Source of the DNA: a virus
Direction: 5' to 3' (one strand)
IMG/VR virus record: IMGVR_UViG_3300049433_000008
Coordinates: 1-20,588 of that record
DNA length: 20,588 nt
Position 1 is the first letter of the stretch. Each line of letters begins with the position of its first letter. The notes beneath the pieces were generated by a model that was not told the origin of the DNA, searched no databases, and saw nothing but the letters and a program-made list of their open reading frames with translations. This document shows, in pieces, positions 727 to 18,174 of the stretch. The position numbers were made by a program, and so were the translations under genes.

Positions 727-1020
727 ATGAAGATAGAAGCTGCACACCGACTGCACGCCGATGAGGACTTCAAGCGCCCTACATCTTGGCTTTGGACCTC
801 AGACGGTATGAAGGGCAAGCAATTAAAGGCTGTAGCACAATCTGTGTACGAGCTTACCAAGGATGCCCAGATCAAGAAATGGGCGGCAGCCATAGTCCAC
901 AACGAACTGATGCCCAGGGAAAGCTTTACGACCATAGTTAAAGCTTTGTGCAGAGAATTCAAAGTGGTGGCCAAAGATAACGCAACTGACCTTCAAAGCT
1001 ATTTAAAGGATATGAAATGA
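727..1020 (+). CDS. Small leader-bearing protein (MKIEAAHRL), unknown function
   Basis: This 97-residue basic, predicted-helical protein starts at an ATG preceded by AAAGAGGT. Residues 1-9 are MKIEAAHRL, the first of ten copies of a leader shared by otherwise unrelated proteins in this window. The remainder (rich in Lys and Ala, with W-T-S-D-G-M-K-G-K near residue 23) has no family I recognise and no membrane segment. Its stop overlaps the next gene in an ATGA arrangement (1017-1020), implying translational coupling. By the leader I infer that it is packaged in the head, but the sequence alone does not show this. Confidence 0.85.
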   Translation: MKIEAAHRLHADEDFKRPTSWLWTSDGMKGKQLKAVAQSVYELTKDAQIKKWAAAIVHNELMPRESFTTIVKALCREFKVVAKDNATDLQSYLKDMK

Positions 1021-1838
1021 AGATAGAGGCCGCCGCCCGACTAAGAGCCTACGAAGGCTATACCTTCACGACCATGCTTGCTAATGTGGAGCACGAACAA
1101 TGGAGTGCTCTACTGGATAGAATCAGCGATCCCAATAAGATCGAGAGCGCCGATATCTGGAAGAAGATAACGGACTTAGGGCTGTTCAAGCACGTCAACG
1201 AATTGTTCGGACACGTCAAAAGCATGATTTTTAAGATTGCTGCCGAAATAGGTACAGACATTAAGGAGATCGTTGAAGTCTTTCGTACCAAGCCTATGCT
1301 GGCTTTCCTGAAGGCCATCAAGTTCAGTATCGTGACTATCCTAAAACCTATCAAGGAATTTGCGAAGCTGTACAAAGATGGTATTATGAAGGTCTTTGAA
1401 AAGCTGCACGAGACGAAGGCCCTTCAGAAATTGCACTCAGGTGCCATGAAGTTGGATGATTTCTTGGATCAGTATCCTATAATCAAACGTCTAGCAGGTC
1501 CCGCAGTAGCCGGACTCTTGGTTTGGATGTGGCTGAGTGGTTCCTTCACAGGACATCCAGATCTAGATATAGACCTGTCTACTGCGATTCAAGCTGCTCT
1601 GCACGGTCAGTGGTCTGCTGCGGAACTCTTTACCTCGAAGCAAGGACTGGTGGCCCTAGGTCTGTTGTTCGCTGGCCTGACTCTACCATGTCCTAGTCCA
1701 CCTTGGCTGGCATCCGGTCTGCCTACTAATGCCTTGCTGGCTCTTTGTTATACGGCTTATCGTCATGTACCGAAGACGGCAGAGTTGAAAGAGAGCTTCG
1801 CACACATCAAGTCCAAGATAAAGTTCGCTCATCTTTAG
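1017..1838 (+). CDS. Leader-bearing membrane protein (MKIEAAARL)
   Basis: This 273-residue protein opens with MKIEAAARL and is translationally coupled to the gene before it by ATGA overlap. Residues 45-150 are a long, Lys-rich, largely helical region. Residues about 158-175 (beginning R-L-A-G-P-A-V-A-G-L-L-V-W-M), 209-226 and 232-249 are hydrophobic enough to be membrane spans, with a Pro-rich turn (P-C-P-S-P-P-W) between the last two. It does not have a signal peptide. A helical soluble part followed by membrane-inserting segments would fit a protein that goes from virion to host membrane on infection, but that is inference. I do not recognise the family. Confidence 0.88.
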   Translation: MKIEAAARLRAYEGYTFTTMLANVEHEQWSALLDRISDPNKIESADIWKKITDLGLFKHVNELFGHVKSMIFKIAAEIGTDIKEIVEVFRTKPMLAFLKAIKFSIVTILKPIKEFAKLYKDGIMKVFEKLHETKALQKLHSGAMKLDDFLDQYPIIKRLAGPAVAGLLVWMWLSGSFTGHPDLDIDLSTAIQAALHGQWSAAELFTSKQGLVALGLLFAGLTLPCPSPPWLASGLPTNALLALCYTAYRHVPKTAELKESFAHIKSKIKFAHL

Positions 1839-2018: not shown

Positions 2019-2303
2019 ATGAGATACCTAAGCAATGTAGAGGCCATATCTTTTGATGAGTTTGTTCAACATGGCCGTGACAACGGTGGTAACATCGTTG
2101 GTGGAATGCCATGGTCGTTCAAATACAAAGGCTATGCCGTAACCCACGAGAACGACACACGCTATTTGATACTGCGTCTAACCGAGCCGCATACCCTAAA
2201 CTTCTTTACCGATGATATGCTAGTCTCAACGGATGACGATATCTTCATCATGAAGGCCTCACAGTTTCACGCACTGTTCAAATCTCTAAAGGACCTGAAA
2301 TGA
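2019..2303 (+). CDS. Small conserved-type phage protein, unknown function
   Basis: This 94-residue protein starts at ATG 2019 behind GAGGGT. The core G-G-M-P-W-S-F-K-Y-K-G-Y followed by V-T-H-E-N-D-T-R-Y-L-I is reminiscent of small phage hypothetical proteins I have seen, but I cannot name a family. It appears to be a compact beta-rich domain. It has no KIEAA leader, although it sits between leader-bearing genes and its end overlaps the next one in ATGA (2300-2303). It is therefore probably co-expressed with them. Confidence 0.8.
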   Translation: MRYLSNVEAISFDEFVQHGRDNGGNIVGGMPWSFKYKGYAVTHENDTRYLILRLTEPHTLNFFTDDMLVSTDDDIFIMKASQFHALFKSLKDLK

Positions 2304-2575
2304 AAATCGAAGCTGCTGCAAGATTAGTGTTAAGCGATAAATGGAGTGCTCCTATTACAGAGAAGGTTGAAGACCATCCACCTGAAGGACTGTTCACTAA
2401 ATCAAGTAACGCAATTGCAAGAGGTCTAAAGAAATTGCATCCTGATCTTAAAGGGGCATCTTCGGCTTTGTCGTTCTATTTGAACCGTGCAGGGAAGAAT
2501 CTCAGTGATGCAGACCGTAAGCGCGTTGAAGGTGCAAGAGAGAAATTAAAGGATCTGTACGGAGAGAAAGAATGA
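2300..2575 (+). CDS. Leader-bearing DUF3175-like protein (MKIEAAARL)
   Basis: This is a 91-residue protein. Residues 1-9 are the shared leader, and residues 14-88 resemble bacterial DUF3175 proteins from memory of that family. The shared features are W-S near the start (W15), G-L-F-T (30-33), a helix with I-A-R-G-L-K-K, S-A-L-S-F-Y-L-N-R-A-G-K-N-L (55-68), and a closing helix E-K-L-K-D-L-Y-G. The family's biochemical role is unknown. The leader appears simply added in front of the domain. It overlaps both neighbours by ATGA (2300 and 2572), so three consecutive genes are translationally coupled. Confidence 0.82.
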   Translation: MKIEAAARLVLSDKWSAPITEKVEDHPPEGLFTKSSNAIARGLKKLHPDLKGASSALSFYLNRAGKNLSDADRKRVEGAREKLKDLYGEKE

Positions 2576-3036
2576 AAGCAAAGAACTTACCACAACGTTT
2601 CAAAGAACTGGATGAAAAACAAATCATGACTTCAAGTATTAAGATTGGCGCTGCTGCGCGCTTACTGGCTTCCCAAGAACTGCGTCTGATGGCCAAGTCT
2701 ACTCCTGTTACTAAAGTAGCGGAGTTCGGCATCAGAGAGATTGGTCGTCAAATGGCTTTGAGGGGCTACATAGCCAATACCGATATTACCCGCGCCTTCT
2801 ACACTACGACCTTCGAGAAGCAAGAGAAAGATTCTGATCCTTGTATCTTCCAGCTAGTTGGTTGGCATGGCAATGGGCACTACGGAACTGAGAAAACTAT
2901 TCTGGAGTTCTACGATGAGTCCGCAGGTCATAAGCCTGTGATTACTATTGGTCAGATCAATGAGGAGAATCTGAATGAAGAGAATGAAAAGCGAGTAGTC
3001 GATAAAATATTGGATTACATAAAACGACACTGTTAG
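2572..3036 (+). CDS. Protein with internal KIGAAARL motif, unknown function
   Basis: This 154-residue protein starts at ATG 2572, coupled to the upstream gene by ATGA and preceded by GGAGAG. Residues 23-31 are I-K-I-G-A-A-A-R-L, a variant of the shared leader lying 22 residues in, again with Ile (ATT) in place of Met. An alternative ATG at 2626 would bring the motif to residue 5, but has no clear ribosome site. The remainder looks like a mixed alpha/beta domain (Q-L-V-G-W-H-G-N-G-H-Y-G near residue 98, then an acidic stretch N-E-E-N-L-N-E-E-N-E). I do not recognise it. Confidence 0.8.
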   Translation: MKAKNLPQRFKELDEKQIMTSSIKIGAAARLLASQELRLMAKSTPVTKVAEFGIREIGRQMALRGYIANTDITRAFYTTTFEKQEKDSDPCIFQLVGWHGNGHYGTEKTILEFYDESAGHKPVITIGQINEENLNEENEKRVVDKILDYIKRHC

Positions 3037-3464: not shown

Positions 3465-3776
3465 ATGAAGATCGAAGCTGCCACCCGCCTGAAGCAAACC
3501 GAAGTAACCGCTGCTCAAGCCAACGTCAAAAAGGCCGAGAAGTATCTGACTGAAATCGGCTTCACTGGTCTGGAATTCAAGACCACGAAGGAAGACGCCA
3601 TCTGCTTCAAGTATGAGAAGTATGATGCCAAGAAAGTTGCTAAGCACCTTGGTGCACCGAAAGGTACTACCAAGAGCGAATCGATTCGCTACGGTGTTGA
3701 GGGTAAGGGCGTGGTCTCCATCTGGCCTGGTAAGGGCGTTGTATGGATGGGTAACTCTGCTAAAAACATCAAGTAA
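3465..3776 (+). CDS. Leader-bearing small domain protein (MKIEAATRL)
   Basis: This 103-residue protein opens with MKIEAATRL after AAAGGAACC. The remaining domain is clearly paralogous to residues 14-95 of the metallopeptidase at 4795: both show Y/F-L-T-E-I/L-G-F-x-G-L-x-F-K, then L-G-x-P-K, S-I-R-Y and G-x-V-x-I-W-P in the same order and spacing. The fold appears to be alternating helix and strand. A more distant relative may be the protein at 14085. Function is unknown. The gene has its own promoter-like element upstream and a terminator directly downstream, so it is probably a strongly expressed single-gene unit, in keeping with an abundant packaged protein. Confidence 0.88.
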   Translation: MKIEAATRLKQTEVTAAQANVKKAEKYLTEIGFTGLEFKTTKEDAICFKYEKYDAKKVAKHLGAPKGTTKSESIRYGVEGKGVVSIWPGKGVVWMGNSAKNIK

Positions 3777-3818: not shown

Positions 3819-4241
3819 ATGCCTTGGCAATGTAGGTTGATCGAGTATACCAAAGGAATGTCGCTATATAACGGTGATCTCAAAGTCGGTGATATGTTCT
3901 ACGCACCTACCAATGAAGAGGATTGGGGGCATACTATACGCTTTGAAATGAAACATCTTGGTGAGTTCTATTACCAGAACAACGTGCATCGCAGGCCTTT
4001 ATTCGTTATTCTTCCAGGTCCCGCATGGTTCTCTATAGATGGGCAAGCCCGAAATGCTGGGGTGTTTCATGATGCATGGACCGTGGCGGGTGAAGCACCT
4101 AACATAACAGTCACTCCTTCTATAAATCTGAATGGTACCTATCATGGGTTCCTTCAGAATGGTATTATCTCTGATGACGTTGAAGGTCGTAAATACGATG
4201 AAGAAGGTTATGAGGTGCGAAATGAAAATCCTGGCAGCTAA
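3819..4241 (+). CDS. Conserved-looking phage protein, unknown function
   Basis: The 140-residue protein starts at ATG 3819 behind TTGGAGG. A GTG at 3789 in the same frame lies inside the terminator stem and is unlikely. The C-terminal part reads W-T-V-A-G-E-A-P-N-I-T-V-T-P-S-I-N, then Y-H-G-F-L-Q-N-G-I-I-S-D-D. This resembles a pattern (Trp-Thr-Val-x-Gly, Pro-Ser-Ile, His-Gly-x-Leu-x-x-Gly) that I associate with small phage-encoded proteins of unknown role. N-terminal residues show a basic/aromatic mix with no membrane segment or leader. Its 3' end overlaps the acetyltransferase gene by 20 nt. Confidence 0.82.
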   Translation: MPWQCRLIEYTKGMSLYNGDLKVGDMFYAPTNEEDWGHTIRFEMKHLGEFYYQNNVHRRPLFVILPGPAWFSIDGQARNAGVFHDAWTVAGEAPNITVTPSINLNGTYHGFLQNGIISDDVEGRKYDEEGYEVRNENPGS

Positions 4242-4791
4242 GCGCCTCAATGCGTTGCGTATTGTTCCACAGGAAGAGGCTTACTCAGAGTCAGATGGCC
4301 AGTTCAGTCTCAGAATCTATAACGAGTTTGTCACTCGTTTGATTAAGACTAATCTCCCAGGCTACGAAATAGCTATAACGAAAAATCCCGAACAGAGCTA
4401 TTACATAGAATCATATCTGGTTCATGAAGGTAAAGCAGTTGGCCTGGTTGGTATTACCCAGTCGCACCTGAACAACAAGAAGGGGCGCATCTATGCCCCT
4501 AGTTCCTACTTCGATCCAAAGCATAGGGGTCTTGGTTATGCTAAAGCACTGTACCGTTGGATTCTCAATAGCGGTACGAATCTTGTTACTAAGAATACGC
4601 AGAGTAAATTCAGTAATGCCCTTTGGCATTCGCTTGCAAAAGAATTTCAGATGATTGAGGTCCTAGACGACGCAATCACAGAGAACAAAGAAGCTGACCC
4701 GCACACTCGCCTGATCCTGTTAGGTAAAGGCAATACGAAGGATGAACTGATACGCGAGTTTGACCTCGCAGATCACACTGTATATGGATAG
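4222..4791 (+). CDS. Leader-bearing GNAT-type acetyltransferase (MKILAAKRL)
   Basis: This 189-residue protein is best started at ATG 4222, where the shared leader appears as MKILAAKRL; upstream in-frame ATGs lie within the preceding gene. Residues 62-145 match the GNAT fold: a strand with G-K-A-V-G-L-V-G-I (70-78), a strand ending near Y96-F-D-P, then the acetyl-CoA-binding motif A turn H-R-G-L-G-Y-A (101-107) and its helix. A later segment, N-A-L-W-H-S-L-A-K-E-F, is like motif B. It should transfer an acetyl group from acetyl-CoA to an unknown substrate. Its leader suggests delivery with the virion, in which case host modification would be a reasonable guess, not a demonstrated role. Confidence 0.85.
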   Translation: MKILAAKRLNALRIVPQEEAYSESDGQFSLRIYNEFVTRLIKTNLPGYEIAITKNPEQSYYIESYLVHEGKAVGLVGITQSHLNNKKGRIYAPSSYFDPKHRGLGYAKALYRWILNSGTNLVTKNTQSKFSNALWHSLAKEFQMIEVLDDAITENKEADPHTRLILLGKGNTKDELIREFDLADHTVYG

Positions 4792-4794
4792 ACC

Positions 4795-6003
4795 ATGAAG
4801 CTCGAAGCTGCACATAGGCTAGTGGCCGTAATGGCCGACAGAAAACAAGCCCAATTGTTTTTAACCGAATTAGGGTTCAAAGGTCTTCGTTTCAAGTCAG
4901 AACGTGAGGACGAAATCAAGTTCTTTTTCTCTGACTACGATAAGGCTGTGGTAACCAAATTCCTAGGTCAACCTAAATCAGTTGAGAAGAGCATCCGCTA
5001 TAACTTCGGTAATCAAGGTATAGTTGCTATATGGCCCTCAACTGATACTGTCATCCTCCAGAATAGTAAGCGCGGTGTAAAACTGACTCCGACTCCTATT
5101 CATGTACCCGAACCTGAACCTAAAGAAGAACCAAAAGATACTGGTCCCAAGACTGGTACGGAGAACGATGACAGCCACGTACCTATCGTTCACATAACGC
5201 CTGAACTTCACGCTGAGTATCAAATGGCACAGCGTAATGAAATGTATCGTATGAAGTTCATGCAATCACTCTGGCGTTTCCTTAATAGAACCAAGTTTGG
5301 CTCTGCGATGGATATTCCGAATATAAGGCTCATGAAGAACGTCAAGGGAACTTCGTTGCGCTTGCGAGGTTACTGGCAGGCATCTACTCGTGAGTTCGCT
5401 ATCTCCAAGCGTCTGTTCAATGCGACTCAGAACTTTTTCGTGGAAGTATTCTTGCACGAGCAGTGCCATCAAGCAGTATCGGAAATCGATCATGTGGTCG
5501 ACCGAACCGAAAAGGGACATGGCCCTAATTGGCAACGTTGGATGCGCAAAGTAGGTTTGAATCCTCTTCGCTTCGATCCGAATGAGAATAGTACCTACAT
5601 GAATCCTCAAGAGAAGAAGGATTACGAGGAACGATTGGCCCGTAGGGATGCCTCATTGGAAGAGATCAAGGAGCAGAATCTCAAACGAATGCCTATGTAC
5701 ACAAAAGGCAGTGATTCCCAAGTGTGTACTGTAATGTGGAGTGGAACCTTGTATGACGGCATTGCTATATGTCCTGCGGTCCAAACTGGTGCTAAGTGGG
5801 CATTCATGTCCTTCGACGACTTGAATAACTATAGGAGTGGTTCAATCCAATGGAAGATCGTGCCTGATAAATCGATCTACATGCCACGATTAAGCGAGAC
5901 TACTGGTGATAAAGAGAAGATCGCTAAAATCCTGTTAGCTGTCATCAACTTCTATAGGCAGAAGAAAGAAAAGCGCCGCACAAATAAACTATACAGGTAC
6001 TGA
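4795..6003 (+). CDS. Leader-bearing SprT-like zinc metallopeptidase fusion (MKLEAAHRL)
   Basis: This 402-residue protein has several parts. Residues 1-9 are the leader (MKLEAAHRL). Residues 14-95 are a domain paralogous to the protein at 3465. Residues 98-130 are a Pro/Glu-rich linker. Residues 145-265 look like a SprT-type zinc protease: H-E-Q-C-H at 221-225 matches HExxH (E222 catalytic) and G-H-G-P-N-W (241-246) supplies the third zinc ligand H242 in the usual SprT context. Residues 305-402 form an unrecognised C-terminal domain ending in a basic tail. SprT/Spartan proteins act on DNA-bound proteins, so removal of host proteins from DNA is one possible role. The Shine-Dalgarno site is weak, and the gene lies 3 nt behind the acetyltransferase. 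Confidence 0.88.
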   Translation: MKLEAAHRLVAVMADRKQAQLFLTELGFKGLRFKSEREDEIKFFFSDYDKAVVTKFLGQPKSVEKSIRYNFGNQGIVAIWPSTDTVILQNSKRGVKLTPTPIHVPEPEPKEEPKDTGPKTGTENDDSHVPIVHITPELHAEYQMAQRNEMYRMKFMQSLWRFLNRTKFGSAMDIPNIRLMKNVKGTSLRLRGYWQASTREFAISKRLFNATQNFFVEVFLHEQCHQAVSEIDHVVDRTEKGHGPNWQRWMRKVGLNPLRFDPNENSTYMNPQEKKDYEERLARRDASLEEIKEQNLKRMPMYTKGSDSQVCTVMWSGTLYDGIAICPAVQTGAKWAFMSFDDLNNYRSGSIQWKIVPDKSIYMPRLSETTGDKEKIAKILLAVINFYRQKKEKRRTNKLYRY

Positions 6004-12682: not shown

Positions 12683-13081
12683 ATGACCGTCAAGAGTCTT
12701 GGCAATCACAGTAAGGGCTATCTGGGCCACGGCATTGGCGGTCATGGTATCGCCAATAACAAGCAAGGTCTCGGGTGGGATTGTCTGGTGGCTTCAGCAG
12801 CCGGCGACGTTGAGTACGTTGAGCTTTCGTCGCTGGTTATTGGAGATATCAACCAGGGTGTGTTCTTCCAATCTGAAGCCGGTGCAACAATTGACTTCAC
12901 CTTGTGTAACTCTGCGTTGGCCACCGACAGAGATCCTCAGGCCCAGGCTTCGGTTCTATGGGGTAATACGCTGACTGTACCTAACACGAAGCAGATCGTT
13001 ACTTCACCGGGTCTGATCCTGTTTACGGTCCTACGTATTACCTTCACCCAACCTGGTGCTGTCTACATCGGAGTACGCTAA
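12683..13081 (+). CDS. Putative small virion structural protein
   Basis: This 132-residue protein starts at ATG 12683, with the AAGGAG ribosome site spanning the end of the preceding gene. It has a Gly/His-rich N-terminus (G-Y-L-G-H-G-I-G-G-H-G) and a beta-rich body with alternating hydrophobic residues (V-E-Y-V-E-L-S-S-L-V-I-G, then I-V-T-S-P-G-L-I-L-F-T-V). This composition and its place just before the protease suggest a capsid-surface or head-joining beta-sandwich protein. I do not recognise a specific family. Confidence 0.75.
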   Translation: MTVKSLGNHSKGYLGHGIGGHGIANNKQGLGWDCLVASAAGDVEYVELSSLVIGDINQGVFFQSEAGATIDFTLCNSALATDRDPQAQASVLWGNTLTVPNTKQIVTSPGLILFTVLRITFTQPGAVYIGVR

Positions 13082-13082
13082 G

Positions 13083-13862
13083 ATGTTTCATTACAACGAC
13101 GCCAAACCTAGGACTAAGGCTCCAGAAGCCCCAAAGGAAATTCACTTCAGTGAGCAGCGTCCAGATATTGTCACTGCTGCTGAAGCCGGTGAGGTAATTG
13201 ATGTGAATAAGAAACCAGAGATTCTCCACTCTTTGGATATTCTGACGCAATTGCCTTTCGCTGCAAAGTTGTACAAAATCTCGCCCAATATCGATGACTA
13301 CATCCTAATATCGGTACCAATTTGTCCATCGGATTTACCTAACCGTAATGGCATTGGATTCCCTCTAGATGAACTAACTAAGTTCCATCCACCTCCAATC
13401 AATCGCATGTCTTACAAGGCATGGGTTGGATGTCCCCTGCATTACGACCATAAGAACGAGATTCATGAGGATGCTTATGGTATTGTTCTTGATGCGACGA
13501 TGCACAAGGTAACTGGTTACGGTAAGGGCAAACTGTGGAAGGTCATGGGCTTAGCTGCCCTAGACAAAACCAAGTATCCCAAGATGGCTCAGCGTGTTCT
13601 GGATAACGACATCAACACCTACTCAATGGGTGCGATGGTGGATGCGTTCTCGTGCTCGTACTGCAAAGAACCTATGACTGAGCAATCATATTGCAGTCAC
13701 GTTCATCCGAAGAACGATATCGACTGGCAGCAGGTGCGAGGTCACGATAATTCAAATCACGTTGCTTTCCGCAATGCACATGGCATAAGTCCCATTGAAT
13801 TAAGCCTGGTTGAGAGCCCCGCGTGGACGACCGCTCTGAGCGACAACATCCTTACTCGATAG
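13083..13862 (+). CDS. Prohead maturation protease
   Basis: This 259-residue protein is best started at ATG 13083, behind CGGAG; an upstream in-frame start lies inside the previous gene. It fits the caudovirus prohead serine protease fold: V-G-C-P-L-H-Y-D-H (115-123, with catalytic His most likely H123), V-M-G-L-A-A-L, and N-T-Y-S-M-G-A (178-184, with nucleophile S181), ending in S-P-I-E-L-S-L-V-E-S-P-A. A zinc-finger-like insertion, C191-S-Y-C194 and C204-S-H206, follows the serine. It should cleave scaffold, capsid and internal proteins during head maturation. V-T-A-A at 30-33 might be a self-processing site. Its neighbours (leader proteins, scaffold, capsid) match the T4-type order. Confidence 0.92.
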   Translation: MFHYNDAKPRTKAPEAPKEIHFSEQRPDIVTAAEAGEVIDVNKKPEILHSLDILTQLPFAAKLYKISPNIDDYILISVPICPSDLPNRNGIGFPLDELTKFHPPPINRMSYKAWVGCPLHYDHKNEIHEDAYGIVLDATMHKVTGYGKGKLWKVMGLAALDKTKYPKMAQRVLDNDINTYSMGAMVDAFSCSYCKEPMTEQSYCSHVHPKNDIDWQQVRGHDNSNHVAFRNAHGISPIELSLVESPAWTTALSDNILTR

Positions 13863-13869
13863 GAACAAT

Positions 13870-14088
13870 ATGAAAATCGAAGCCGCTGCCCGACTAAAGG
13901 CTGCTGACAGTATTGAGAAACAGCGCAGAGAAGGCGACAAAGAACGTATTACTCAACTCCAAACTCTTATCAAGCACGCCGAAGAGGATGTTAAGGATAT
14001 AGAGGAAGACGGCGATGACGCATCCAGAGAGCGCAAGCATCTAGAATCAATGAGAGAAGAACTCCGTAAACTGAAAGGTATAAAATGA
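13870..14088 (+). CDS. Leader-bearing coiled-coil protein (MKIEAAARL)
   Basis: This 72-residue protein begins MKIEAAARL after ATAGGAACA. The rest is almost entirely charged and helical, with heptad-like spacing of hydrophobics (I-T-Q-L-Q-T-L-I, then L-R-K-L-K), so it is probably a coiled coil. It sits between the prohead protease and scaffold genes, the position held in T4 by small prohead-core genes, which supports a head-core or packaged role. It overlaps the next leader-bearing gene by ATGA at 14085-14088. Function beyond that is unknown. Confidence 0.85.
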   Translation: MKIEAAARLKAADSIEKQRREGDKERITQLQTLIKHAEEDVKDIEEDGDDASRERKHLESMREELRKLKGIK

Positions 14089-14438
14089 AAATCGAAGCTG
14101 CACAAAGACTCAAGGTAATGGCTGCGGCAAGTCCTGCAGCCGCACTTAAATTCTTTCGTAAGTTGGGACTCAAGGTAGACAAGCTGCCTTCTTATGTTGA
14201 GGACACGCTGCCTACTGCAGGCGGTTTTGCCAACGCAAGTAACGCAGAACTTCTGGGTAGTCGTGTAGCGCCTTTAAAAGTTTTGACTGAGACTTACGGC
14301 CAGCCTAAACGTATAAAGAAGCGAAATGAGAACCAATACGCATGGACTATTCCTGGCGGCAATCAAGCCGTATGCTACGTAGTTTCTGATGACCCTGATA
14401 CGGTTGCGTATCTACGGTTGGCCGAAATAAAATACTAA
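14085..14438 (+). CDS. Leader-bearing protein (MKIEAAQRL), possible paralogous domain
   Basis: This 117-residue protein starts at ATG 14085, coupled to the upstream gene by ATGA with AAAGG upstream. Residues 1-9 are MKIEAAQRL. The body may be a divergent form of the domain at 3465 and 4795: A-L-K-F-F-R-K-L-G-L (22-31) resembles the first helix, T-Y-G-Q-P-K-R (70-76) resembles L-G-x-P-K, and a strand with G-N-Q-A-V-C-Y-V follows as in the others. The match is weak and contains a longer insertion. Function is unknown, but its placement inside the head module supports a head-associated role. Confidence 0.83.
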   Translation: MKIEAAQRLKVMAAASPAAALKFFRKLGLKVDKLPSYVEDTLPTAGGFANASNAELLGSRVAPLKVLTETYGQPKRIKKRNENQYAWTIPGGNQAVCYVVSDDPDTVAYLRLAEIKY

Positions 14439-14449
14439 TCACAAGCAGT

Positions 14450-14472
14450 AATTTTACACAGTAACATCAACT
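14450..14472 (+). promoter_or_regulatory. Promoter-like element AATTTTA-N4-GTAACATCAACT
   Basis: AATTTTA (14450-14456), spacer CACA, then GTAACATCAACT (14461-14472), both blocks identical to those at 3427-3449. It is 16 nt before the scaffold start codon, with the GGAGG ribosome site between. Confidence 0.5.
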
Positions 14473-14488
14473 AACATTGGAGGGCATT

Positions 14489-15844
14489 ATGCCTATTCGT
14501 GAGAAGCTCGCGGCAGTAGCAAAGGCCAAGAAAATTAAGGCTGGTTCTACCCACGGCGGTAATGGTGGTAACGTCGACATCGAGGAACAATCGATTGACG
14601 ACCTGGAAAATAACATGGACGTTGATACACTGACGGACCCTGAAGATGTAGAAGGTGGTAGTACTCACTTCTCCATCACCGCAAAGAAAAAGATCAAGGC
14701 CGATCCTACTTGCGAACAGAACGTAGGTACTCTGCCTAACGATACTGAACCAGCCCAGGGCTACATTGAGAATGCATCCGAAGGTGATGCTGATTTCGAT
14801 GAGCAAATGGACCTGAATGAAGATGAAGTAGAGGCTTCTCTGGATGAAGAACTGGAGAACAACAACGCCGATACTCCTCTGACTGCCGCTGAAGGTGAAG
14901 ACGAGGATTGGGATTCTCCTCCTCCGGACGCTGATGCAATGGACGATGACGTTGAATCCGAGGAAGAAGGCGGTGAAGATACTGCTGAATTCGTCGCACC
15001 TGAAGAAGCTACTGCCGATGCAGACGAAATGTCGATCATGGACGTGGATGAAATGGATGATGCCGATAACAAGGACATTCACTTCGCTACTGCGGGTACT
15101 CGTGTTCTGGTCATCAAAGCAAACCGCATCATTGCATCGATGACTGAAGGCATTGCTACTAAAGCTGGTCGCATCGATGTATATCTGACCGATCAGTACC
15201 AGGAAGTAACTGCTTCCGAGATCGCTAAGAGAGGTCTGCGCCGTGGTCTGAAGGCAATGGGCTTCGTTGAGGCTCGTGTGAAGATCCAGAAGAACTCGGT
15301 GATCGCTGCCTTGGTCAAGAAAGAAGTTACCAAGACCACTGCTGCTGTTCGTCAAGTTGCTAACGTCAAGCAAGAGGCTCTGGAGCAATCGCTGGCAATC
15401 GCATCGGTCGGTATCAACCGCGGTTTCTTCCAGAAGAACGAGAACGTTTTGCGCGCTGCGCTAGAAGAACAGCTGATTCAAGCGGGTGTGCGAAACCCTA
15501 AGCGTATGCTGACCCAAGTATTTGCTTCGGTAGGCCCTGAATACGCCAAGCAGGTTATGCAGCTGGCCCAGAAGATCGCTGCTATGCCGCAAGAAGCCCG
15601 CGATGGTTACGTCGAAGCGCTGGACATGACTTCGGAAGACCTGGACGAGCCAGATGAGGACATGATCCCGATTGGTGCAGGAGACGATGACGAGGAAGAG
15701 GACTTCAACGATGTTGAAGAACTGAGTCCTACGATGGCAACTGCAGGTGTTGTAATGAAACGTCGCAACAAGGTAACTGCTGGCACGTATTCGCTGCAAG
15801 CAAGTGCTGTACTGAATGGCGATGTACCTCTGTTCTCGCTGTAA
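14489..15844 (+). CDS. Prohead scaffold/core protein candidate
   Basis: This 451-residue protein starts at ATG 14489 behind TTGGAGGG; the TTG inside that ribosome site is not used. Residues 30-200 are strongly acidic and low-complexity (long Asp/Glu runs). Residues 205-390 are a more ordered, Lys/Ala-rich helical domain (K-A-G-R-I-D-V-Y-L-T-D-Q), then another acidic region and a basic end. Acidity, helix content and position between protease and capsid genes fit a T4 gp22-like scaffold. The K-I-K-A-G (15-19), K-I-K-A-D (68-72) and K-V-T-A-G (428-432) peptides resemble the shared leader core and could be protease sites, as scaffolds are usually cut into fragments. No sequence family is recognised. 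Confidence 0.78.
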   Translation: MPIREKLAAVAKAKKIKAGSTHGGNGGNVDIEEQSIDDLENNMDVDTLTDPEDVEGGSTHFSITAKKKIKADPTCEQNVGTLPNDTEPAQGYIENASEGDADFDEQMDLNEDEVEASLDEELENNNADTPLTAAEGEDEDWDSPPPDADAMDDDVESEEEGGEDTAEFVAPEEATADADEMSIMDVDEMDDADNKDIHFATAGTRVLVIKANRIIASMTEGIATKAGRIDVYLTDQYQEVTASEIAKRGLRRGLKAMGFVEARVKIQKNSVIAALVKKEVTKTTAAVRQVANVKQEALEQSLAIASVGINRGFFQKNENVLRAALEEQLIQAGVRNPKRMLTQVFASVGPEYAKQVMQLAQKIAAMPQEARDGYVEALDMTSEDLDEPDEDMIPIGAGDDDEEEDFNDVEELSPTMATAGVVMKRRNKVTAGTYSLQASAVLNGDVPLFSL

Positions 15845-15855
15845 ACACAACACAC

Positions 15856-15879
15856 AGTTTTATCACTGTAACACAAATT
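15856..15879 (+). promoter_or_regulatory. Promoter-like element AGTTTTA-N5-GTAACA
   Basis: AGTTTTA (15856-15862), a 5-nt spacer, then GTAACACAAATT (15868-15879), 17 nt before the 15897 start codon. It is a slightly diverged copy of the element at 3427 and 14450. Confidence 0.45.
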
Positions 15880-15896
15880 AACTATTGGAGGTTTCA

Positions 15897-16568
15897 ATGA
15901 TCTACGGTCCACTCTCTAAGTACCCTGACTCGGCTGAAGCCGCAGTGGCTCCTGGTGCTGTTATCACTGCTGAAGGTACGGCTCTGGTACGTGCTGTTGG
16001 TGCTCAAGCTGCTGGCGTTCTGCCTTCGACTGGTACTTCCGCTGACATTTTCGTCGGTTTCTCGATTGCTGGTACTTCGGCTGCTCCTTTCGCTGAAGGT
16101 TACACCAACAAAAACGAGACTTTTACCGTTCCTGCAACTGGTAACGTTAACCTGCAATTCACTCCAGTAGCGGGTCAGGTCTTTGTCTTCGACAATACCT
16201 CGAACTCTGCTGTTGCTACACCTACCGTGGTCGGCAAGCAAGTCCAGGGTCTGACTGTTGGTGACCAAGTAACGGTAACCTACAAGTACCCGCTGTCCGT
16301 TGTTCAGGCCCGTGCTCTGACCGGTGACGTTCAGCCAGGTGGCTACAGTGGTGCGTATATCGGCCAGATCGGCTGCATCAAACGTGGTTTGATCTATACC
16401 TCGGAATTCGACGCATCGAAGAACTGGGCAGCAGCTACCGCAATCAAGATGGCAGCAAATGGCCAACTGACCGATCAATCGGGTGCTGGTAATGCTATTA
16501 ATGGCTACGTCGTAGCTGTACCTGGTTCGGACATCCCGTTCCTGGGCATTGAATTCTCGGCAGCTTAA
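15897..16568 (+). CDS. Putative head decoration/structural protein
   Basis: This 223-residue protein starts at ATG 15897 behind TTGGAGGT. It is rich in Ala, Gly, Val and Thr, with few charges and many beta-strand-like segments (V-F-V-F-D-N-T-S-N-S; V-T-V-T-Y-K-Y-P-L-S), typical of abundant capsid-surface proteins. It lies between scaffold and major capsid genes and shares their strong TCG/CTG codon preference, consistent with high expression. V-I-T-A-E (22-26) near its N-terminus is a possible but weak match to the proposed processing motif. A capsid decoration or cement role is the best guess; no family is recognised. Confidence 0.75.
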   Translation: MIYGPLSKYPDSAEAAVAPGAVITAEGTALVRAVGAQAAGVLPSTGTSADIFVGFSIAGTSAAPFAEGYTNKNETFTVPATGNVNLQFTPVAGQVFVFDNTSNSAVATPTVVGKQVQGLTVGDQVTVTYKYPLSVVQARALTGDVQPGGYSGAYIGQIGCIKRGLIYTSEFDASKNWAAATAIKMAANGQLTDQSGAGNAINGYVVAVPGSDIPFLGIEFSAA

Positions 16569-16600
16569 GAGCCGGCTCAAACCTAACAACGGAGAAAAAT

Positions 16601-17683
16601 ATGAACATGAAAGTTAAAGTCACTGCATCCCGCACCCCAGTAGCCGCTTCGGAATTCCGTTTCGTAGGCGCTTCCGAACGTGCTGTCGGTGCCAACGGCG
16701 AGCTTAACGCATCGAGCAAGCGCGAACTGATTAGCAAGCAGATGCAGTTCCTGCAAGCATCGTCTAGCGGCCAAGTTACTACCAACGCTGAAGCTACTCG
16801 TCTGGAAGCCCAGTCGAAGGTCAATCGTGAACTGATCACCGCGGCCTTCAACGATTCGGCTGCTCACCGTGTTCTGGGTGAGCGTATGGCTGACTCGCTG
16901 TTCATCACAGCAAATCGTCAGGGCTTCATGCGTAAGTATCTGGCTCGCGTTCAAGTGAATCAAGGTACAGTGCCTCGTTTCCCACTGCGTACCAAGAACG
17001 TTACCGCTGTATGGTCGACTTCGCCGACCCGCATCGATAGCCAAATCACTCGCGACAAATGGTACACTCCACCAGAACTGAGCATCGTGGCTCGTCCGTT
17101 CGTAACCCAGAACGAACTGAACCAAAGTGCCGGCGACGTGCTGCAAGAGAAGTATGTCGAAGCAACCGAAGCAATCATGGTTGCAGAAGACCGTCTGTGG
17201 TACAACCAAGTCAACGCCCTGGTCGGTATCGACAACAACCTGAGCATTGTCTCGGGCCAGTTGACTCCGTTCACTCTGATGCAAGTCTCTACCAACGTTA
17301 CTCGTTGGGGCCTGAAAGTACCGAACATTCTGCTGGCATCCGATCTGTATCAGGATATCATCGGTAACAGCGAGTTCTACAACGCCATCGATCCAGTTGC
17401 TCGTCACGAACTGCTGTTGACTGGTGAACTGGCTGTAATGTACGGTATGACTCTGACCTCGGATGCGTATCGTCACCCAGAACACAAGGTCCTGAACCAA
17501 GGTGAGTTCTTCTGTATCTCGGAAGCTCTGAACCACGGTGCATACTCGGATCGTGGTGGCCTGTCGTCGAGCCCAACCGATATCGTCAACGAGAAGATTC
17601 CAGGTAAAGGCTGGGTCATCCACGAAGAGATCGCTATCTCGGTTGCCAATTCCAGGTCGGTAGCCAAGGGCGTGAGGATTTAA
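16601..17683 (+). CDS. Major capsid protein (HK97-like fold)
   Basis: ATG 16601 lies behind ACGGAG; an ATG at 16607 is less well spaced. The 360-residue product has an N-terminal helical region (to about residue 90), then segments typical of HK97-fold capsid proteins: V-P-R-F-P-L-R-T-K-N (125-134), the region W-Y-T-P-P-E-L-S-I-V-A-R-P-F-V, a long central helix with A-T-E-A-I-M-V-A-E-D-R-L-W, and a late W-G-L-K-V-P-N-I-L-L-A-S-D strand-turn. Position after protease and scaffold, size and codon bias (mostly TCG for Ser) support the call. K-V-T-A-S at 6-10 resembles the proposed processing motif. The true mature end may lie further in; this cannot be decided here. Confidence 0.9.
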   Translation: MNMKVKVTASRTPVAASEFRFVGASERAVGANGELNASSKRELISKQMQFLQASSSGQVTTNAEATRLEAQSKVNRELITAAFNDSAAHRVLGERMADSLFITANRQGFMRKYLARVQVNQGTVPRFPLRTKNVTAVWSTSPTRIDSQITRDKWYTPPELSIVARPFVTQNELNQSAGDVLQEKYVEATEAIMVAEDRLWYNQVNALVGIDNNLSIVSGQLTPFTLMQVSTNVTRWGLKVPNILLASDLYQDIIGNSEFYNAIDPVARHELLLTGELAVMYGMTLTSDAYRHPEHKVLNQGEFFCISEALNHGAYSDRGGLSSSPTDIVNEKIPGKGWVIHEEIAISVANSRSVAKGVRI

Positions 17684-17690
17684 AATCCTC
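17674..17690 (+). other. Hairpin overlapping the capsid stop codon
   Basis: GAGGATT (17674-17680) pairs with AATCCTC (17684-17690), with the TAA stop codon as the loop. No T run follows, so it is not a usual terminator. It may protect or pause the abundant capsid mRNA. Confidence 0.45.
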
Positions 17691-17702
17691 CTCTAAGTTC
17701 AC

Positions 17703-17718
17703 GGGAGCTTCGGCTCCC
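17703..17718 (+). other. UUCG-tetraloop hairpin after capsid gene
   Basis: GGGAGC (17703-17708), TTCG loop, GCTCCC (17713-17718): an exceptionally stable small hairpin. AGCTAATC follows rather than a T run. It is likely an mRNA stability or partial termination element between the capsid gene and the next gene. Confidence 0.6.
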
Positions 17719-17742
17719 AGCTAATCTCAAAAAGGACCTAAC

Positions 17743-18174
17743 ATGAAACACTACAATCGTGCCCTGGACTGCGTAACTCTCGCAATGGCTTTTGCTGCCA
17801 AAGGTCAAGTGACCGCAGCAGCAAAGATGTTTACCAAAGCAATGGCGCAGCCAGACGTTAAGCGTGCTATCGCAACCCTGGAAGCTTCGGGTGCGCAAGC
17901 ATTTGCTACCGTTCAAGCTTCGGCCAAGACCAAGAAAGTCGCGGCTTCAAAGAAAGTCACCGCAGGCGACGACCTGGATATGGGTGATGAAGACGATCTG
18001 GAAGCTCTGGTCGGCGCTGACGCCATGGAAATGGATGACGACATGGATGACGACATGGACGACAGCGTGGAAGAAACTGCTGACGCCGACGATATGGAAG
18101 AGCCAGATGACTTCGATGGTGCTGAGTTTGCCAAAGTGATGGCAAGCTTGCAGAAGCCAGCAAAGCGTAAGTAA
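17743..18174 (+). CDS. Acidic-tailed head-associated protein
   Basis: This 143-residue protein starts at ATG 17743 behind AAAAAGGAC. Residues 1-65 are helical and Ala-rich. Residues 60-75 are basic and carry K-V-A-A-S (65-69) and K-V-T-A-G (71-75), matching the proposed processing motif. Residues 76-125 are almost all Asp, Glu and Met with short tandem D-D-M-D units. The end is basic (A-S-L-Q-K-P-A-K-R-K). The acidic/basic design resembles the scaffold two genes back, and it lies between the capsid gene and a strong terminator. A prohead core or capsid-associated role is inferred from position. Confidence 0.8.
   Translation: MKHYNRALDCVTLAMAFAAKGQVTAAAKMFTKAMAQPDVKRAIATLEASGAQAFATVQASAKTKKVAASKKVTAGDDLDMGDEDDLEALVGADAMEMDDDMDDDMDDSVEETADADDMEEPDDFDGAEFAKVMASLQKPAKRK

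Follow-up and report, generated by a model that had tools for sequence, protein, structure and literature searches.

A predicted [V/I/L]-x-A cleavage code for the prohead protease of a jumbo phage, with signs of joint re-coding in sister lineages

The hypothesis

The window analysed here is the whole of a 20,588-nucleotide stretch of viral DNA (IMG/VR record IMGVR_UViG_3300049433_000008). It is a 20.6 kb piece of a jumbo myophage genome and encodes a prohead protease together with a scaffold, a major capsid protein and an acidic head protein. We propose that a short motif recurring in these head proteins, and in a set of N-terminal leaders on other proteins, is the substrate code of the protease, which would be of the T4 gp21 type and is predicted to cut after the Ala of [V/I/L]-x-A; we give this a probability of roughly 0.82. 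The motif is enriched, concentrated in head substrates and leaders, and conserved in position; it covaries between lineages, and the modelled fold of the protease agrees with the assignment.

The capsid protein of the window is 73% identical to the major head protein of Burkholderia phage BcepSauron and 62% identical to that of Achromobacter phage Motura, and relatives of the window are encoded at 63 IMG/VR loci, from which the comparisons below are drawn.

The motif in scaffold and acidic head protein

A preliminary description of this DNA had proposed that the protease cuts after the Ala of K-[I/V]-x-A, and had listed such sites in the scaffold, the capsid, the acidic protein starting at 17743, the protease and the leaders. 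All of them are indeed present at the residues it gave, and the acidic protein has two more, KVAA at residues 65-68 and KVMA at 131-134. The features of the scaffold and the acidic protein are as follows (an arrow marks a predicted cut).

14489..15844, + strand: scaffold/core protein, [VIL]-x-A sites throughout, numbered from the ATG at 14489 and identified by motif enrichment
14531..14542, + strand: scaffold site 1, KIKA↓G, residues 15-18; most related scaffolds have an N-terminal-proximal [KR]-[VIL]-x-A
14690..14701, + strand: scaffold site 2, KIKA↓D, residues 68-71; many relatives have a second KVKA or RVKA site
15770..15802, + strand: C-terminal scaffold sites, KVTA↓G (428-431) and SLQA↓S (Ala 438); most relatives have S-[VL]-x-A near the C-terminus
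17743..18174, + strand: acidic head protein; KVAA↓S and KVTA↓G separate its N-terminal domain from its acidic tail
17935..17964, + strand: acidic protein sites KVAA (65-68) and KVTA (71-74, followed by G); [KR]-[VIL]-x-A-[SAG]-[DE] is conserved in the alignment

It had also been cautioned that these proteins are rich in Ala and Lys. The motif exceeds chance even when observed counts are set against shuffles that preserve local composition, which is how enrichment is expressed throughout. In the window scaffold there are four occurrences of [KR][VI].A[AGSD] where 0.27 are expected, and 12 of [VILM].A[ASG] where 3.0 are expected (0 of 2000 shuffles reached either count). Over 37 related scaffolds the latter pattern gives a z-score of 20; pooled z-scores of this kind are inflated by homology among the sequences, and taken one by one 32 of 39 scaffolds have p<0.05.

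To compare head with non-head proteins, homologues of each were taken from the related loci. In scaffolds (n=39) K[IV].A[AGSD] exceeds the shuffles 7.7-fold; the figures are 6.4-fold in capsids and 3.3-fold in the acidic protein, against 1.2-fold in helicases, and does not occur in the tail sheaths of these loci. The form without Lys, [VIL].A[ASG], is raised 2.9-fold in the 39 scaffolds (z 19), 3.5-fold in capsids and 2.8-fold in the acidic protein, and is at background in helicases (1.0-fold), sheaths (1.0-fold), the virion protein at 15885 (1.0-fold) and proteases (0.9-fold). The preliminary description had named a motif no rarer in tail and replication proteins as grounds for giving up its proposal, and this is not what the count returned. 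Within the window the scaffold leads in enrichment for this form, and the acidic protein and the capsid make up the rest of the top three. In the C-terminal part of the acidic protein, [KR][VILM].A is found in 20 of 32 relatives, with 6.0 expected.

Totals of K[IV].A[AGSD] over whole genomes equal the shuffle expectation (11 against 11.0 in BcepSauron, 15 against 14.0 in Motura). We attribute these weak counts to the fact that Lys is not required. For whole genomes, here and in the leader searches below, a simple longest-ORF (open reading frame) script called the genes, so that some start codons may be wrong. The main exception to a head-only distribution of [VIL].A[ASG] is a large protein of 1427-1696 amino acids encoded outside the head-gene cluster, with 40 occurrences against 18.8 expected in G002:66121-71211 and 32 against 15.1 in G008:71962-76245.

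The core of the code

An unsupervised scan of 400 gapped residue pairs X.Y in 37 scaffolds ranked V.A highest (z 14), with I.A next (z 11). Applied unchanged to T4 gp22, gp67 and gp68, it put L.E and I.E in the top two places, which is the published gp21 site, L/I-x-E (PMC9026906); hence the scan does recover a true cleavage code in this positive control. Glu at P1, the residue before the cut, finds no support in the scaffolds of our set, where [VILM].E is depleted (250 against 333 expected) and [VILM].A enriched. In the alignments, a hydrophobic residue and an Ala two positions later are kept, and the Lys at P4 is variable: related capsids have Q, N, S or T there, Lys being favoured in the scaffold and the acidic protein. 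What the alignments conserve is [V/I/L]-x-A followed by a small P1' residue, Lys at P4 being optional. Of the original proposal, then, the Ala at P1 and the recurrence in head substrates and leaders stand, and the requirement for Lys falls.

Covariation between lineages

Sister lineages were defined from capsid homologues, and their scaffolds are enriched in other motifs: A-x-A in PaBG, Lu11 and HRDY3 (z 4.2-5.8), and S-x-S in JA29, fHe-Yen9-02, Y3, Alexandra, AD1, Yoloswag and SNUABM_5 (z 4.3-6.2). The S-x-S set consists of Erwinia, Dickeya and Yersinia jumbo phages (L068, L137, L139, L140, L141, L142 and L146), whose strong S-x-S signal would be a further candidate protease specificity. Near the scaffold C-terminus the motif is VTA↓A, LEA↓H or LQA↓S in the window clade, ATA↓S or AVA↓S in the second group and SQS↓S in the third. 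The capsid follows the same division at a column near residue 70, with RLEA↓Q in the window and IEA, LEA or VFA in its relatives (KIEA↓A in one), ATA↓S in Lu11 and HRDY3, and SES, SQS, STS or SHS in the S-x-S phages; S-x-S stands at this junction in 7 of 7 S-x-S phages and in 0 of 16 members of the window clade. The PaBG capsid has several A-x-A candidates at the column. To Aura, GR7B, GR11A, Xhv16, RHph and NCTB no single code could be given.

The capsid maturation site

16601..17683, + strand: major capsid protein, 360 amino acids (phrog_2522, E 1e-93; homology to the phage G capsid, 6wkk, over residues 72-356)
16616..16627, + strand: capsid KVTA↓S, residues 6-9, the site of the preliminary description, probably secondary
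16802..16810, + strand: capsid LEA-70↓Q, predicted maturation cut removing residues 1-70, with lineage-specific motifs at this column

It had been suggested that the capsid is trimmed at K-V-T-A-S, residues 6-10. We think a cut after residue 70 more likely. The column near residue 70 lies 19-20% into the protein (70/360 is 19.4%), and in PaBG maturation is reported to take away about 20% of the mass of the capsid protein (PMC7412058). The phage G capsid, the only solved relative found, matches the window capsid from residue 72 onwards, and its gene product has just 282 residues. Taken together, the PaBG loss, the start of the phage G homology and the length of the phage G gene product make residues 1-70 look like a pro-region. 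With the lineage-specific motifs described above, we consider that the mature capsid probably starts after RLEA-70 and not after KVTA-9. At residue 9, 39 of 42 relatives retain a [VILMF]-x-A, to which the S-x-S lineages have no counterpart; KVTA there would be a secondary cut inside the pro-region.

Two further motifs in this region, LNA-37 and LQA-53, were weighed as possible cuts and rejected. Both are invariant in the window clade, and we take them as structural because lineages that use another code still have the NA of the GExNA segment.

Leaders and their cargo

Leaders of the form K-[I/L]-x-A-A-x-R-L, a generalisation of the K-I-E-A-A noticed earlier, open nine called ORFs of the window and one more in the frame 1745-2011.

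727..759, + strand: leader MKIEAAHRLHA↓ (leader consensus, as for all entries with no other basis given)
1017..1049, + strand: leader MKIEAAARLRA↓
2300..2332, + strand: leader MKIEAAARLVL, second site without Ala
2626..2670, + strand: leader MTSSIKIGAAARLLA↓S, at an internal start of ORF 2572-3036
3465..3497, + strand: leader MKIEAATRLKQ, second site without Ala
4222..4254, + strand: leader MKILAAKRLNA↓ of a GNAT acetyltransferase (PF00583, E 1e-5)
4795..4827, + strand: leader MKLEAAHRLVA↓ of a SprT-like metalloprotease (PF10263, E 1e-10)
13870..13902, + strand: leader MKIEAAARLKA↓A
14085..14117, + strand: leader MKIEAAQRLKV, second site without Ala

The consensus of 48 leaders from six genomes, K-[IL]-x-A-A-x-R-L-x-A-[A/S/T], holds [IL]-x-A twice. 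With the first-site position unconstrained, Ala occupies it in 48 of 51 leaders; Ala is found at the second site in 38 of 48. N-terminal motif discovery in the sister lineages returned leaders that end in the code of their own lineage, MKIQLA[VI]A↓ in Lu11 (for example MKIQLAVA↓) and M[KEQ]I.[IV]SLS↓ in Y3 and fHe-Yen9-02 (for example MKIFISLS↓). One pair of orthologous cargo proteins (38% identity, E 5e-38) allows the junctions to be compared directly: the protein of genome G005 begins MMKLNAAHRLLA↓SQIFYRGL, its leader ending in LLA↓, and that of Erwinia phage Y3 begins MQIFVSLS↓SPKIFYRGL. In this alignment the junction with the cargo falls at the second site, which makes R-L-x-A↓ the likelier bond to be processed. 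Hence the leaders do appear to carry a site, as had been suggested, and they are probably cut after this second site rather than after K-I-E-A↓.

A short leader that is common to unrelated proteins and ends in the protease motif is what a capsid targeting sequence (CTS) looks like; the leader is a candidate tag for loading proteins into jumbo-phage heads. Cargo in the clade includes, besides the GNAT and SprT-like proteins of the window, a NUDIX protein and a protein of saccharopine-dehydrogenase fold (G002:8449-9900 and G005:34377-35792). The latter matches a Motura protein, and Motura is reported to encode homospermidine synthase (PMC9992855), for which reasons we infer that it resembles this enzyme. 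Should the leader prove to be a targeting signal, the head would hold a packaged polyamine enzyme.

A short repeat-like segment, WW..L....Q..Y...HP.SK, follows the leaders of several cargo proteins (G005:4950-5558 and 36845-37780), and is also found after an S-x-S leader in fHe-Yen9-02 (26553-27596).

The protease

13056..13862, + strand: prohead (head maturation) protease (phrog_18299 head maturation protease, E 6e-75)
13170-13181, + strand: candidate self-cleavage site VTA↓A, residues 39-42 if the start is the GTG at 13056

Along the window the helicase gene is followed by two small genes, the prohead protease, two leader genes, the scaffold, the virion protein at 15885, the capsid, the acidic protein, a further two small genes and the tail sheath; BcepSauron and Motura share most of this order. 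Neither Pfam nor NCBIfam recognises the protease. Its presumed catalytic His and Ser residues, H129, H132 and S190, are invariant in 27 sequences. For the AlphaFold model (predicted TM-score, pTM, 0.61, moderate confidence) the best VIA match is T4 gp21 (5jbl, Z 8.5 over 133 residues), followed by many herpesvirus proteases. Foldseek of the model against the PDB gave nothing significant, gp21 being found only by VIA, and hhalign against a single gp21 sequence gave a probability of 0.2%, yet paired the H and S regions sensibly. The best-supported assignment, as far as the model can be trusted, is a gp21-type protease closest to T4 gp21 itself.

The V-T-A-A near the protease N-terminus, which had been listed among the sites, is present, and [VIL]-x-A recurs N-terminally in several close relatives, but the protease as a whole is not enriched; its VTAA is a weakly supported candidate for self-cleavage.

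Two peculiarities may be recorded here. Residues 200-215, shortly after the S-M-G segment, form a zinc-finger-like insert that is invariant in the family, C-x2-C-x9-C-x-H. In L025:6230-7030 (IMGVR_UViG_3300018414_000006) an intein (TIGR01443 intein C-terminal region, E 1e-7; PF14890) interrupts the protease gene immediately ahead of the conserved H/E-H region.

Mechanism and alternative explanations

In the mechanism that we propose, the protease would cut after Ala in [V/I/L]-x-A, preferring a small next residue (A/S/G/T). Inside the prohead, the scaffold would be cut at many places, including near its C-terminus; the acidic protein would be split between its N-terminal domain and its acidic tail; and about 70 residues would be removed from the capsid protein, after RLEA-70. 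An 11-residue leader, MK[I/L]xAAxRLxA↓, would be clipped from about ten other proteins. The T4 capsid targeting sequence suggests, by analogy, that this leader probably takes them into the core of the prohead as internal cargo. Cleavage itself, the exact bonds, packaging and ejection are what we infer from the observations above.

It may be objected that Ala/Lys-rich helices with a hydrophobic periodicity would give [VIL]-x-A with no recognition by a protease. The proteins are Ala-rich, scaffolds likewise show an excess of A.[VILM] (z 6.5) and of [KR]..A (z 6.8), and the invariant LNA-37 and LQA-53 of the capsid do look structural. However, shuffles that preserve local composition fail to reproduce the motif, the helicase, sheath, protease and neighbouring virion protein stay at about 1.0-fold, the T4 control recovers a true site, and the sister lineages have A-x-A or S-x-S in corresponding places; in our opinion this makes a mere echo of composition or structure very improbable. 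The preliminary proposal in its exact form, in which Lys is indispensable and the mature capsid begins with residue 10, fares a little better, and we still hold it unlikely. It can point to the highest fold enrichment of any pattern (the 7.7-fold in scaffolds) and to the conserved hydrophobic-x-Ala at capsid residue 9, but many relatives replace the Lys by Q, N, S or T, a start at residue 10 would cost the capsid 2.5% and not the roughly 20% lost in PaBG (PMC7412058), the fold homology begins at residue 72, and the S-x-S lineages lack the residue-9 site.

One could also accept the scaffold and capsid sites as real and regard the leader as a different signal that resembles them and is not removed, for example one that binds the scaffold or a host structure. 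The near-invariant R (48 of 49) and L (48 of 48) of the leader core are not explained by a cut after K-I-x-A, and the second-site Ala is lacking in some window leaders. Against this, the leaders follow the lineage code (LAVA↓ in Lu11, SLS↓ in Y3 and fHe-Yen9-02), the cargo junction aligns, and the T4 CTS combines targeting and processing residues in one short leader (PMC9026906). We regard this alternative as quite improbable.

Several observations weigh against cleavage at [V/I/L]-x-A as we propose it. Taken individually, the BcepSauron and Motura scaffolds have no significant [VILMF]-x-A enrichment. The capsid junction motif of the window clade, in 14 of 16 members against 8.5 expected, is modestly above shuffles, and two members that have a deletion are without it. 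In the AlphaFold model of the capsid (pTM 0.40, too weak to locate the mature N-terminus) residue 70 appears to lie within a helix, 62-84, with no obvious loop. Besides the window leaders that lack the second Ala, BcepSauron has few leaders and an N-terminal motif search of PaBG gave no clear leader set. The covariation rests on about three independent groups whose members are related, and the literature on related phages and on phage P1 yielded no mass spectrometry or N-terminal sequence for the window clade.

Implications and comparison with known systems

We also favour, with some reserve, a wider reading. A family of jumbo phages may have switched its protease code in at least three ways (V/I/L-x-A, A-x-A and S-x-S, none with Glu at P1), the scaffold, the capsid junction and the leaders being re-coded together; the code of the window clade would equal the herpesvirus assemblin consensus; and up to about a dozen proteins per genome, among them homospermidine-synthase-like, NUDIX, GNAT and SprT-like proteins, would be tagged for packaging and delivery to the host. 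If this is true, it would be a clear case of co-evolution in which substrates appear to change with the code of their protease, mature N-termini and packaged cargo would become predictable from sequence alone in uncultured jumbo phages, and there would be a possible bridge to the herpesvirus site. Ala or Ser at P1 would be new beside T4, phiKZ, 201phi2-1, SPN3US and phage P1, all of which cut after Glu.

The window resembles T4 in the fold of its protease (VIA Z 8.5 to gp21), in a short P3-x-P1 code across scaffold/core proteins, in a probable pro-region at the N-terminus of the capsid protein (in T4, 65 of its 521 residues) and in a leader of about 10 residues that would end at the cut site on packaged proteins. 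It differs in its predicted P1, Ala and not Glu, in a leader that is unrelated in sequence and holds two copies of the motif, and in the CxxC...CxH insert that follows the presumed catalytic serine. The T4 capsid targeting sequence has 10 residues, and its processing is set by residues 8 and 10 (PMC9026906).

Cleavage after Glu is established for the proteases of T4, phiKZ, 201phi2-1 and SPN3US (PMC9026906, PMC10052503). The giant-phage codes are S/A-x-E in phiKZ and A-x-E in SPN3US, which prefers Ser at P1' (PMC10052503, PMC9026906). Like the phage of the window these are giant phages with many cleaved head proteins and a short P3-x-P1 code, but their P1 is Glu, as opposed to Ala in the window or Ser in sister lineages, and the propeptides of SPN3US are mostly long, unlike the leaders of about 11 residues found here. 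Phage P1 cuts its capsid after Glu, at E120↓S121, and its DarB has an N-terminal packaging signal (PMC9024508); with the window it would share a packaging signal of this kind for internal proteins and the removal of a capsid pro-region (PMC9024508). The Glu at position P1 sets it apart, as does the fact that phage P1 is without a known separate scaffold.

The maturational site of herpesvirus assemblin is (V/L/I)-x-A↓S. It shares with the predicted code of the window V, I or L at P3, Ala at P1 and a small P1' residue; it too lies near the scaffold C-terminus, and the protease folds are related. Unlike the herpesviruses, the phage has separate scaffold and protease genes, and its scaffold would be cut in many places. 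Whether this shared specificity reflects descent or convergence, we consider the two equally possible.

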